Source: Flagellatimonas centrodinii
GTDB taxonomy: Bacteria > Pseudomonadota > Gammaproteobacteria > Nevskiales > Nevskiaceae
Reading direction: 5' to 3'
Assembly: GCF_016918765.2 (NCBI RefSeq)
Contig: NZ_CP092104.1
Coordinates: 496,001 to 560,000 of the forward strand
DNA: 64,000 bases
In this document: piece by piece, positions 44,804 through 48,430 of the stretch
Layout: every line of letters starts with the position of its first letter
Position numbering within the stretch: the stretch's first letter is position 1
Position numbers and translations under genes: made by a program
The notes under the pieces: model-generated
Databases searched by the model: none
Seen by the model: only the letters and a program-made list of their open reading frames with translations
What the model was told of the DNA's origin: nothing

Positions 44804-45718
44804 TCACCCTTTGAAGGTCGACAGGCCGACGTCGCCGAAGGGGTCGTCCCGCTCGCGCACCGCCTGCCGGAAACCGGCCTCGGCAGCGCGCTGTTGGAAG
44901 GCATAGCCTTCTGGCGTGTGGCGGGTGATCCCGTCAAACACCGTGCCCAGCACCTGGGTCGTGTGCAATCCCTGCTGCATCACCGACTGATTGAGCAGCA
45001 GCTTCATCATCACCAGCTGGTTCACCGGCATGCGGGCGATACGTGCCAGCAGGACCTCGAAGCGTTCATCCAGCTGGTCGGCGGGCGCCGACTCGATGGC
45101 GAGGCCCCATTCCCGGGCCTCGCGACCCGAGAGGCAATCGCCGGTGAACAGCAGCCGCTTCGCCTTTTCCAGGCCGATCCGATGGAACCACAGCGAGGTG
45201 GTGGGTGAGCCCCAGACCCGCGCCGGCGGGTAGCCGATCTTGGCGTCATCGGCGATCACCAACAGGTCGGAACACAGGGCCATGTCGGTGCCGCCGGCGA
45301 CACAGAAGCCATGCACCTTGCACACCACCGGCTTCTCGCTGTGAAACAGGCTCATGAAGCCCTTCACGTTCCGGCTCATCATGGCGTAGTCGGTCATCGG
45401 GTCCCACTGCGCATCCGGCGCGTGATTGCGCATCTGCACCGCTGGGTCCAGCACCGAGCCGACCGGCCGGTGCGGGCCGGCTTCCCCCACCGACATCGAC
45501 TCGGCGCTGTCGACCAGATCGTAGCCGCCGCAGAAACCACTGCCGTTACCCGCCAGCGCGATGACGTGCACCGCGGGATCGAGGTTGGCACGCTCCACGC
45601 AGGCGGCCAACTCCCGTGGCAGGTCCATGGTGATGCCATTGCCGCGCGCGGGGCGGTTGAGGGTGATGCGGGCGATACGGTCAGTGACCGCGTAGGTCAT
45701 GGTCTGCAATTCGGACAT
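44804..45718 (-). CDS. Crotonase family (enoyl-CoA hydratase/isomerase-like) protein
   Basis: 304 residues, somewhat longer than normal. Crotonase fold: VIALAGNGSGFCGGYDLVDS (first oxyanion region), then an inserted loop before KPVVCKVHGFCVAGGTDMAL (second). The usual catalytic Glu in the region GYPPARVWGSPTT is replaced by other residues, so hydratase activity is uncertain. ATG 45718 lies one base past the preceding stop. It is co-transcribed with the crotonase before it. Substrate unknown. Confidence 0.88.
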   Translation of the reverse strand: MSELQTMTYAVTDRIARITLNRPARGNGITMDLPRELAACVERANLDPAVHVIALAGNGSGFCGGYDLVDSAESMSVGEAGPHRPVGSVLDPAVQMRNHAPDAQWDPMTDYAMMSRNVKGFMSLFHSEKPVVCKVHGFCVAGGTDMALCSDLLVIADDAKIGYPPARVWGSPTTSLWFHRIGLEKAKRLLFTGDCLSGREAREWGLAIESAPADQLDERFEVLLARIARMPVNQLVMMKLLLNQSVMQQGLHTTQVLGTVFDGITRHTPEGYAFQQRAAEAGFRQAVRERDDPFGDVGLSTFKG

Positions 45719-45719
45719 G

Positions 45720-46529
45720 TCAGGCTCCATCGGAGAGATCGGAAAAGCGGCCGTGGCGGCCAATGCCATCGCGGAAGCGGCTGGCGCCCGCCACGGTCTC
45801 CCCCGACTGCAGGGTGGCCATGCCGTGCCTGAACTCGTTGGCGATGGCGGCCGGTTCATCCAGCCCCCATTGCTCATAGGCGCTTTGCCGGTCCCCCCGC
45901 AGACAGGTCTGAGGGAAACCGGCCAGCTCGCCGGCCAGTGCCACCGCCGCAGCCAGCGCCTGCCCGGCCGGCACCACCCGGTTGGCCAGCCCCATCTGCA
46001 GGGCCTCGTCAGCGCCCACCGGGCGGCCGGTGAGAATCAGGTCCATCGCCCGACTCATGCCGATCAGGCGCGGCAACCGCACGGTGCCGCCATCAATCAG
46101 CGGCACACCGAACCGCCGGCAGAACACGCCGAATACGGCGGTCTCGTCGGCCACTCGCAGGTCACACCAGGCCGCCAGCTCCAGCCCTCCCGCAACGCAA
46201 TATCCACTGACGGCGGCGATCACCGGCTTCGACAGCGACAACCGGGTCGGGCCCATGGGGCCGTCGCCATCCGGGGCCAGTCGATTGCGGCGCGCGGCAT
46301 CGCCACTGGCCACGGCCTTGAGATCTGCACCGGCGCAGAAGTGATCGCCCGCCCCGGTGAGGATCGCCACGGCGGCGTCAGTGTCCGCCTCGAAGTCACG
46401 GAAGGCCTGCACCAAGGCTGCGGCGGTCGCACCATCGACCGCGTTTCGGGCCTCGGGTCGATTGAGGCGAATCACCCAGTAGGACGGCGCCCGTTGGATC
46501 TGGACCAGCGCAGCATCAGCGGATGTCAT
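45720..46529 (-). CDS. Enoyl-CoA hydratase
   Basis: 269 residues, a regular crotonase: VAILTGAGDHFCAGADLKAV, KPVIAAVSGYCVAGGLELAA and ETAVFGVFCRRFGVPLIDGG. The segment between carries typical catalytic positions. It is the first gene of the pair, starting 11 bp left of an inverted repeat and facing a PaaX-type regulator. GAGAA precedes the ATG. Likely part of a fatty acid or aromatic/terpenoid degradation module; no acyl-CoA synthetase or dehydrogenase lies in the window. Confidence 0.9.
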   Translation of the reverse strand: MTSADAALVQIQRAPSYWVIRLNRPEARNAVDGATAAALVQAFRDFEADTDAAVAILTGAGDHFCAGADLKAVASGDAARRNRLAPDGDGPMGPTRLSLSKPVIAAVSGYCVAGGLELAAWCDLRVADETAVFGVFCRRFGVPLIDGGTVRLPRLIGMSRAMDLILTGRPVGADEALQMGLANRVVPAGQALAAAVALAGELAGFPQTCLRGDRQSAYEQWGLDEPAAIANEFRHGMATLQSGETVAGASRFRDGIGRHGRFSDLSDGA

Positions 46530-46539
46530 CGGCGTTTCT

Positions 46540-46579
46540 CATTACATGATTTGACGTATTTTATACCTTCAATGTAATG
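46540..46579. promoter_or_regulatory. Inverted repeat, candidate operator shared by both divergent genes
   Basis: CATTACAT (46540-46547) and ATGTAATG (46572-46579) are perfect 8-bp complements with centres 32 bp apart, about three helical turns. The AT-rich region contrasts with the GC-rich surroundings. The right arm overlaps the regulator's -10 box, the left arm lies just before its -35. Confidence 0.55.
46551..46578 (+). promoter_or_regulatory. Candidate promoter of the PaaX-type regulator
   Basis: TTGACG (46551-46556), 16-bp spacer, TGTAAT (46573-46578): five of six consensus bases in each box. The -10 box is inside the right arm of the inverted repeat. Confidence 0.5.
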
Positions 46580-46589
46580 TTTATTGCAA
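46560..46589 (-). promoter_or_regulatory. Candidate promoter of the crotonase pair
   Basis: On the minus strand, TTGCAA (46589-46584), 18-bp spacer, TATAAA (46565-46560). It interleaves with the rightward promoter, so one bound regulator could affect both genes. Confidence 0.45.
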
Positions 46590-46613
46590 TGAACTTTGTT
46601 GCTCACCACCGCA

Positions 46614-47414
46614 ATGAACCCCACGCCCCGTCGCTTGATTCTGGACCTGCTGCTCGCGGCTGAAGGCCGTCCGTTGGCGGCGCGCGACGCCATTGCCGCC
46701 AGCGGTCTGTTCGGCGCCCGCGAGAGCAGCGTGCGGGTGGCTTTGGCGCGGCTGTCGGCCGACGGACTGATCGACAGCACCGATCGCGGCTGGTATCAAC
46801 TCAGTGCCAAGGGCCACGAACTGGCCGATGACGTTGCCACCTGGCGCACCGCTGAGCAGCGCACCCGCGCCTGGCGCGAAGGCCACTACCTGCTGGTCCA
46901 TACCGGTGGCCTCGGCCGGGGTAATCGCAGCGCGCTGCGGCGCCGTCAGCGGGCGCTGGATCTGCTGGGCTTCCGCAGCCAGGCGTCGGACCTGCACCTG
47001 CGACCTGACAACCTGGCCGAGGATCTGCCGTCACTGCGCCGACGTCTGCGCGCGCTCGGGCTTCCAGCCGAAGCCATACTGTGCACGGCCACCGACTTCG
47101 ACCCCACCGATGAGCGACGGATCCGCGCCCTCTGGGACGGCAAGGCGCTCAATCGCACCTATCGCAGCCTGCGCGCCGAACTCGAGGCCTGGCTGAAGCG
47201 CGCCCCCCGCCTGGAGACCGACGTGGCGGCCCGCGAAGCATTCCTGCTCGGTAGCCGCGGTATCCGTCAGGTGGTCTTCGACCCGCGCCTGCCGGCACCG
47301 ATGGTTGATATCGAGGCGCGGCAGGCTTTCGTCGCCAGCGTTCACCGCTTCGACCGTACCGGTCAGCTGATCTGGCGCCACTGGATCGAACAACAGCGAG
47401 AGCTCACGACATGA
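46614..47414 (+). CDS. PaaX-type transcriptional regulator
   Basis: 266 residues. N-terminal winged helix (TPRRLILDLLLA, ESSVRVALARLSADGLI), a middle domain with GWYQLSAKGHELADDVATWR, and a C-terminal regulatory domain as in PaaX. PaaX represses phenylacetate catabolism in response to phenylacetyl-CoA, and this regulator likely responds to an acyl-CoA. ATG 46614 follows the inverted repeat and promoter. It overlaps the start of the desaturase by 4 bp, so they form one unit. Confidence 0.85.
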   Translation: MNPTPRRLILDLLLAAEGRPLAARDAIAASGLFGARESSVRVALARLSADGLIDSTDRGWYQLSAKGHELADDVATWRTAEQRTRAWREGHYLLVHTGGLGRGNRSALRRRQRALDLLGFRSQASDLHLRPDNLAEDLPSLRRRLRALGLPAEAILCTATDFDPTDERRIRALWDGKALNRTYRSLRAELEAWLKRAPRLETDVAAREAFLLGSRGIRQVVFDPRLPAPMVDIEARQAFVASVHRFDRTGQLIWRHWIEQQRELTT

Positions 47415-48394
47415 CCGCTCATACCCCCACGCTGCAGCGGAACCCTTCCAGGGCACGCAGCTTCCTCAGCACCGACGAAATCCGGCGCTTCACCGCGCGT
47501 TCGAACCTGATGGGCGCCTGGGCGCTGCTCAGCACCTGGAGCGTGATTGCACTGTCCTTTGCGGCGTTGGCGTACTGGCCCAACCCGCTGACCTTCCTGC
47601 TGGTGGTGGGCGTGCTCGGCGGGCGGCAACTGGCGCTGGCCATCCTCGGCCACGAAGCGGCCCATCGCACCCTGTTCCGCCATCGTGGTCTCAACGACTG
47701 GGCCGGCGATTGGCTGGCGGCACGGTGGATCTGGAACGATGTGCCGCGCTACCGGATTCATCACATGCGACACCACGCACACACCGGCACCGAGGGCGAC
47801 CCCGACCTCAGCCTGGTGGCGCCCTTCCCGACGACCCGCCGCAGTCTCTGGAAGAAGGTGCTGCGAGATCTCACCGGTGTCACCGGCGTTCGCCGGATCG
47901 CGGCCCAGGTGCTGATCGATATCGGCGTTTTCGAGTACACCGTGGCCGCCAAGGTGACGCCGCGCCCATCGGCCGGCCGCCGTTGGGCCGACTACGCGGC
48001 AGAAGGCGCACGCAACATGGCCGGCGTGGTACTCACCAATGCGCTGATGTTCGCCGTGCTGGCGCTGATCGGCCATGCCTGGCTCTACGCCGCCTGGGGT
48101 GTGGCGTACCTGACCACTTTCAGCCTGTTCATCCGCCTTCGTTCGATCGCCGAGCATGCCTGCATGGCGCGCAGCAGCGATCCCCTGCGCAATACCCGCA
48201 CCACCCGCGCCGGCTGGTTGGCTCGGATGACGGTGGCGCCGTTCAACGTCAACTTCCACCTGGAGCACCATCTGCTCGCGGCCGTGCCCTGGTTCCGCCT
48301 GCCCGCCCTGCATCGGCATATGCGGACACGCCATGGGGTGGCGGCGGCCGATGGCTATCTGGCGGTATTGCGCACCGCCTCGGGACGCGGATGA
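47411..48394 (+). CDS. Fatty acid desaturase
   Basis: 327 residues. Di-iron membrane desaturase with three histidine boxes: HEAAH (81-85), HHMRHHAHTG (117 on) and HLEHH (from 283). The third box is also found in acyl-lipid desaturases and in carotenoid/alkane hydroxylase-like enzymes, so the substrate is open. Four membrane helices. Coupled to the PaaX gene by ATGA overlap. A bidirectional terminator follows 12 bp after the stop. Confidence 0.9.
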   Translation: MTAHTPTLQRNPSRARSFLSTDEIRRFTARSNLMGAWALLSTWSVIALSFAALAYWPNPLTFLLVVGVLGGRQLALAILGHEAAHRTLFRHRGLNDWAGDWLAARWIWNDVPRYRIHHMRHHAHTGTEGDPDLSLVAPFPTTRRSLWKKVLRDLTGVTGVRRIAAQVLIDIGVFEYTVAAKVTPRPSAGRRWADYAAEGARNMAGVVLTNALMFAVLALIGHAWLYAAWGVAYLTTFSLFIRLRSIAEHACMARSSDPLRNTRTTRAGWLARMTVAPFNVNFHLEHHLLAAVPWFRLPALHRHMRTRHGVAAADGYLAVLRTASGRG

Positions 48395-48402
48395 GCCCCC
48401 AC

Positions 48403-48430
48403 AAAAAAACCCCCGCACGCGGGGGTTTTC
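48403..48430. terminator. Bidirectional terminator between desaturase and adk
   Basis: An 11-bp stem (48406-48416 with 48419-48429), 2-nt loop. Reading leftward there is a run of seven T, reading rightward four T. It serves convergent desaturase and adk. Confidence 0.9.

Follow-up and report, generated by a model that had tools for sequence, protein, structure and literature searches.

Positions 44,804 to 48,394 of the window, a 64,000-nucleotide stretch of the Flagellatimonas centrodinii genome, are filled by two divergent operons, the rightward one encoding a PaaX-family transcriptional regulator and a membrane fatty-acid-desaturase-type protein and the leftward one two crotonases, ECH1 and ECH2. 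The 84-base gap between ECH1 and the regulator holds an inverted repeat, and comparison with related genomes makes it highly probable that one PaaX-family regulator binds this CATTACAT/ATGTAATG repeat as its operator and co-controls the desaturase and crotonase operons. The features of the locus are as follows.

44804..45718, minus strand: crotonase 2 (ECH2), ECH_1 domain, best NCBIfam model PRK08272
45720..46529, minus strand: crotonase 1 (ECH1), leading gene of the leftward operon, ECH_1 domain
46540..46579, no strand: predicted operator CATTACAT-N24-ATGTAATG, conserved core TTAC-N28-GTAA
46551..46578, plus strand: putative rightward promoter TTGACG-16-TGTAAT, from sequence, under the promoter-scan threshold
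46560..46589, minus strand: putative leftward promoter TTGCAA-18-TATAAA, from sequence, under the promoter-scan threshold
46614..47414, plus strand: PaaX-family transcriptional regulator, 266 aa, ATG at 46614, PF07848 and PF08223
47411..48394, plus strand: membrane fatty-acid-desaturase-type protein, 327 aa, PF00487

The regulator and the desaturase are probably co-transcribed because the desaturase start codon overlaps the stop codon of the regulator gene (ATGA), and ECH2 begins one base past the stop of ECH1. The two arms between the operons, CATTACAT at 46540-46547 and ATGTAATG at 46572-46579, are a perfect inverted pair, as the initial annotation had described, with 24 bases between them, and contain the conserved core of TTAC (46542-46545) and GTAA (46574-46577) with a 28-base spacer. 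Counting both strands, the window has three copies of CATTACAT, where shuffles would give 0.49, and two of the three are the operator pair. The exact pair of 8-mers at the N24 spacing is found once in the 3.6 Mb host genome, where the sole other match within three mismatches has all three. The motif search elsewhere in the genome that had been proposed earlier yielded little: RTTAC-N26-28-GTAAY has one other match, at gcvPA/tpx (gene names read from the open reading frames), which is taken as chance because a reversed control pattern matched 13 times, and a host regulon extending beyond the cluster was accordingly rejected.

Two interleaved divergent promoters had been proposed for the gap, and their hexamers are indeed present at the spacings given. 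The rightward pair consists of TTGACG (46551-46556) and, after 16 bases, TGTAAT (46573-46578), so that the −10 element lies inside the right arm, as had been noted; the leftward pair consists of TTGCAA (46589-46584) and, after 18 bases, TATAAA (46565-46560), the −10 element of which lies between the arms. Since neither pair reaches the threshold of the promoter scan (0 found; shuffle mean 0.1), both promoters are regarded as plausible and not as confirmed.

The regulator clearly belongs to the PaaX family. Its N-terminal PaaX domain scores 32.2 bits (PF07848, gathering threshold 24.8) and its PaaX_C domain 35.9 bits (PF08223, threshold 22). A structure search with the predicted model (pLDDT 92) ranks E. 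coli PaaX first (8a39, Z 17.1 over 255 residues) and Mycobacterium tuberculosis Rv0674 second (3kfw, Z 16.8 over 233 residues), while 3l09, named as a PaaX in PMC9493321, gives Z 13.3 over 228 residues; the next matches are unrelated winged-helix proteins, at best Z 11.1 over 69 residues. The model thus predicts a PaaX fold along the whole chain. By NCBI's criterion the protein is nevertheless not PaaX, the phenylacetate repressor, itself, as it scores 45.7 bits with the PaaX equivalog model TIGR02277 against a cut-off of 264.55, and no paa oxygenase or ligase gene is found among the scanned neighbours, the rest of the genome not having been searched for paa genes.

The likeness to E. coli PaaX extends from family and fold to the geometry of the operator, as both systems have inverted half-sites 27-28 bases apart in divergent promoters. 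The E. coli site is given as TGATTC(N27)GAATCA in PMC9493321, and K-12 DNA has TGATTC-N27-GAATCG before paaA and TGTTTC-N28-GAATCA before paaZ, a range within which the N28 of the window falls. The half-site is a different one, TTAC/GTAA here against ATTC/GAAT there, and so are the targets, a desaturase and crotonases in place of the divergent paaZ and paaABCDEFGHIJK operons.

The strongest evidence for the operator comes from related regulators, upstream of which the initial annotation had set beforehand that the repeat should be conserved. The TTAC/GTAA motif was first spotted by eye in the first loci and then tested for spacer specificity; 114 regulator upstream regions were reduced to 85 by removing 29, all as redundant. 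The named loci are the top 80 of 122 obtained from a public genome collection, among them loci of Solimonas, Agitococcus, Pseudomonas aeruginosa PA7, Alcanivorax, Burkholderia and Aquabacterium. The expected conservation was borne out: TTAC-N27-GTAA is present in 52 of the 85 regions, with N26 in two and N28 in three, and each remaining spacer from 4 to 59 occurs in 0-2 regions (shuffle mean at N27, 0.09). The 57 named regions unlike those that defined the motif have N27 in 39, N26 in one and N28 in one. A strict N26-28 site is missing from 29 of the 85 regions, 14 of which come within one mismatch at N27; each other spacer between 15 and 41 yields 0-1 such matches, and shuffles average 0.14. 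In an alignment of 46 sites, the ninth base inward from the left half-site is a C in 78% and its counterpart on the right a G in 65%, the former present and the latter absent in the operator of the window, and across loci the operator stands at about −40 to −100 relative to the regulator start.

Two variants of the site were observed. In three loci of one genus (L068-L070) the half-sites read GTAC/GTAC or GTAC/GTAA at an unchanged spacer of 27 bases, which appears to be a natural case of operator drift. Elsewhere, upstream of the regulator in L092, L093, L141 and L057 and upstream of the desaturase in L253-L256, two operators 37 bases apart overlap head to tail around a common central GTAATATTAC-like palindrome, possibly forming a cooperative double site.

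The repeat also follows the target genes. In the host family, ECH1 orthologues (threshold E 1e-80) were found in 50 of 58 genomes, and a site with up to one mismatch and N26-28 was sought within 250 bases upstream (129 bases in G024, where the stretch is short). It is present in 20 of the 24 genomes with the regulator and in none of the 26 without it (Fisher p 2e-10, ignoring phylogeny). In G017, G006 and G003 the regulator lies 1.8-3.5 kb from ECH1 and the site stays at ECH1, so that the repeat appears to belong to the targets and not only to the regulator. Desaturase homologues (threshold E 1e-50, identity as low as 36%) occur together with the regulator in 26 of the 58 genomes, and 30 have neither; the regulator alone is found in G006 and the desaturase alone in G011 (Fisher p 3e-14, again ignoring phylogeny). 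In four genomes of one genus, Solimonas, namely G008, G019, G027 and G032, the desaturase lies far from the regulator, in G027 at 2.48 Mb against 0.65 Mb on one contig, and each of these unlinked genes is preceded by two overlapping one-mismatch N27 sites sharing a central GTAATATTAC. The desaturase thus looks to be part of the same circuit as the regulator and the crotonases.

These comparisons bear directly on whether the repeat could serve autoregulation only, with the crotonases being controlled elsewhere. PaaX is self-repressed in E. coli (PMC9493321), and in many loci the regulator's own operon provides the only recognised genes adjoining the site; however, the three genomes with a crotonase site at a distance from the regulator, the 0 of 26 crotonase promoters carrying a site where the regulator is absent and the sites at the four unlinked desaturases make such an explanation quite improbable. 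Control of both arms by one regulator, as the initial annotation had suggested, is therefore upheld by the comparison. The wider interpretation is supported in part, as hydration/isomerisation and the rarity of the pairing find no support and release by acyl-CoA would be an analogy with E. coli PaaX. The original observation is real and its core better supported than had been stated. The tendency of relatives to have the switch only together with the regulator points to a recurring, so far undescribed control circuit, and no description of this regulon was found in a full-text search of open-licence papers.

A number of observations weigh against co-control by a single regulator. Besides the sub-threshold promoters and the counts uncorrected for phylogeny, 15 of the 85 upstream regions lack both a strict N26-28 site and a one-mismatch N27 site. 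Seven of these can be explained: in three (genomes G017, G003 and G006) the site stands at ECH1 instead, two (G038 and G048) have GTAC half-sites 27 apart in place of TTAC/GTAA, in L134 a strict site lies at −207, outside the stretch searched, and in L130 a one-mismatch site extends to the regulator start; eight are without a defensible site. Four regulator-bearing genomes have no site at ECH1: in G001, from the host's own genus, ECH1 is inside the regulator's operon, before which there is no clear site; in G013 and G071 ECH1 is located elsewhere; and in G034 it is a contig-edge fragment, the regulator-side site being present. The unlinked desaturase of G003 has no site upstream; judged by eye, the DNA just before it looks like the remnant tail of a second, degraded regulator gene, and the operator may be missing for that reason. 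A distant regulator-desaturase pair in Acinetobacter baumannii (36% and 47% identity) has no recognisable operator upstream (its 4.1 Mb record is labelled a plasmid, the length suggesting a mislabelled chromosome). In E. coli, the paaX promoter itself departs from the N27-28 spacing and gives its best match at N31 (one mismatch), followed by N22, N26 and N35 (two mismatches). The circuit is, moreover, taxonomically broad but patchy: within the order, 35 of 85 genomes have a regulator homologue (as fragments only in G014), but in an even sample of the class just 6 of 369 do (E 1e-15).

Finally, a motif-blind test for perfect 5-base inverted pairs in 34 regions is far less sharp, with 13 at spacers 25 and 27, 11 at spacer 31 and 0-9 elsewhere, so the sharpness lies in the combination of motif and spacer and not in palindromes generally. 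This weak peak, along with the gcvPA/tpx match as proof that chance matches occur, is what could be cited for a chance AT-rich palindrome or a repeat used by another DNA-binding protein, but the spacer specificity over the 85 regions and over the 57 that played no part in defining the motif, and the lack of the site in genomes without the regulator, leave hardly any room for either.

With control of both operons by the PaaX-family regulator as the preferred explanation, a mechanism may be proposed. The regulator would occupy both TTAC/GTAA half-sites, which are separated by about three turns of the helix, and so control its own gene, the desaturase and the two crotonases; the bound protein would cover the right −10 element and the left initiation region. 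Since the operator covers both putative promoters, RNA polymerase would be blocked in both directions. E. coli PaaX is a repressor released by acyl-CoA and also acts on its own gene (PMC9493321). By analogy we infer that the regulator most likely is a repressor that leaves the DNA upon binding an acyl-CoA that these enzymes produce or use, and from such release desaturation and acyl-CoA processing would be switched on together. An activator, or a dual activator and repressor, would be consistent with the variable position of the site from the regulator start and with the weak consensus matches of both promoters. The overlap of one arm with the putative rightward −10 element and the placement of the other just downstream of the putative leftward start, however, fit occlusion, and the E. 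coli homologue represses (PMC9493321), which renders activation unlikely.

The chemistry of the targets is less readily assigned. The crotonases had been expected to carry out hydration or isomerisation, an expectation that the sequences do not support: in a four-sequence alignment with PaaF, whose Glu pair we take to be the catalytic pair of hydratases, ECH1 has the first Glu and a Cys at the second position and ECH2 has Asp and Pro, so hydration is not to be assumed and seems doubtful. ECH2 is 79-89% identical across full-length matches although both Glu residues are missing, and appears to be a strongly conserved atypical crotonase. The nearest solved relatives of ECH1 include 3qka, a chain titled EchA5, which together with the PaaX fold of the regulator recalls the Rv0674-EchA5 (Rv0675) pair of M. 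tuberculosis, although Rv0674 shares just 20% identity with the regulator of the window in the structural alignment. Table 3 of PMC4928086 lists EchA5 with the transcription factor Rv0674, from an earlier network model; the main text of PMC4191388, which presents that model, does not mention Rv0674. An M. tuberculosis echA5 null mutant is described as not differing from the wild type in growth on the carbon sources that were tried (PMC3220763), and EchA5 thus gives no hint as to a substrate.

The desaturase scores 129.5 bits with PF00487 against a threshold of 29.7, and its histidine boxes (H81, H85, H117, H118, H121, H122, H283, H286 and H287) are invariant in 14 sequences. Its model is nearer to AlkB (Z 12.2) than to SCD1 (Z 6.9), the two best rows of the search being a chain of the Orf2971/Ycf2-FtsHi complex (Z 20.1 and 18.9). 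Family and histidine boxes make it a fatty-acid-desaturase-type protein, which may carry out acyl desaturation, hydroxylation or a reaction on another substrate. DesT of Pseudomonas is a TetR-family acyl-CoA-sensing repressor that controls a membrane desaturase. The regulator of the window would work alike, but it is of the PaaX and not the TetR family, and its site is found at crotonases as well. The TetR-type PaaR of Burkholderia cenocepacia likewise has an inverted-repeat operator in the core promoters of acyl-CoA pathway genes (PMC2770484), which differs in the protein family and in being a compact, 15-base repeat.

The gene neighbourhood elsewhere does not support the initial view of the pairing as uncommon, since 45 of 73 non-redundant named loci have a desaturase no more than 6 kb from the regulator. 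An AidB/isovaleryl-type acyl-CoA dehydrogenase is found that close in 28, ECH1 in 21 and ECH2 in 12, and seven loci have none of these genes, suggesting that elsewhere the regulon of this PaaX subfamily also includes the dehydrogenase. In none of 12 regulator-bearing genomes, the host included (30 of 48 matches examined), does the AidB-like gene carry its own site at up to one mismatch; in three of the 12 the gene is in an operon with crotonases. On a Rhizobium plasmid the regulator faces an isovaleryl-CoA dehydrogenase with AATTAC-N27-GTAACT between them, the site overlapping the annotated regulator start, upstream of a start homologous to that in the window. On a Tsukamurella plasmid CATTAC-N26-GTAATG occupies the gap between a PaaX-family gene and the genes that face it, which encode a crotonase, an MpaB-type oxygenase and an ECH2-like crotonase; in this T. 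tyrosinosolvens locus the oxygenase lies between the crotonases, where a desaturase might be expected.

Further variations were seen among individual loci. Marinobacter mobilis (L134) has three consecutive desaturase genes behind the regulator and a strict operator about 200 bases upstream, beside ECH2. PaaX-type control is not universal, as shown by a plasmid of Sulfitobacter mediterraneus on which the neighbours of an ECH2-like crotonase (53% identity) are of TetR type and a PaaX-family gene is missing. Metagenome-assembled contigs titled Pedobacter, Myxococcales and Caldilineales (L093, L106 and L119) hold close relatives of the regulator, which may reflect either misbinning or transfer.

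In the window, the cassette is flanked by a coaD-type gene, next to what is presumably an rsmD-like open reading frame, on one side and by an adenylate kinase gene on the other; the domain scan of the neighbourhood lists crotonases, the desaturase, CTP_transf_like (coaD-type), adenylate kinase and a pyrophosphatase. Between the desaturase and adk there is an A-rich CCCCCGCACGCGGGGG hairpin (48403-48429) with TTTT after it, which has the look of a terminator working in both directions; a terminator scan of the window reported nothing, this hairpin included.

Taken together, the regulator appears to represent a branch of a known kind with new targets and not a new kind of system. It is conceivable, if slightly short of an even chance, that a second PaaX-family branch acts as an acyl-CoA sensor of lipid state, co-controlling the desaturase, the atypical crotonases and the AidB-like dehydrogenase through ATTAC-N27-GTAAT in trans as well as in cis, in Gamma-, Beta- and Alphaproteobacteria and Actinomycetota and perhaps including Rv0674, as a PaaX-fold counterpart of the TetR-type desaturase regulators. 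The operator, targets and predictions are sharp. They give uncharacterised regulators annotated as 'PaaX family', perhaps one in M. tuberculosis among them, a precisely defined operator and a set of targets that can be tested, and join desaturases and crotonases whose substrates are unassigned in a single circuit, suggesting that a family known for aromatic degradation may control lipid desaturation too.

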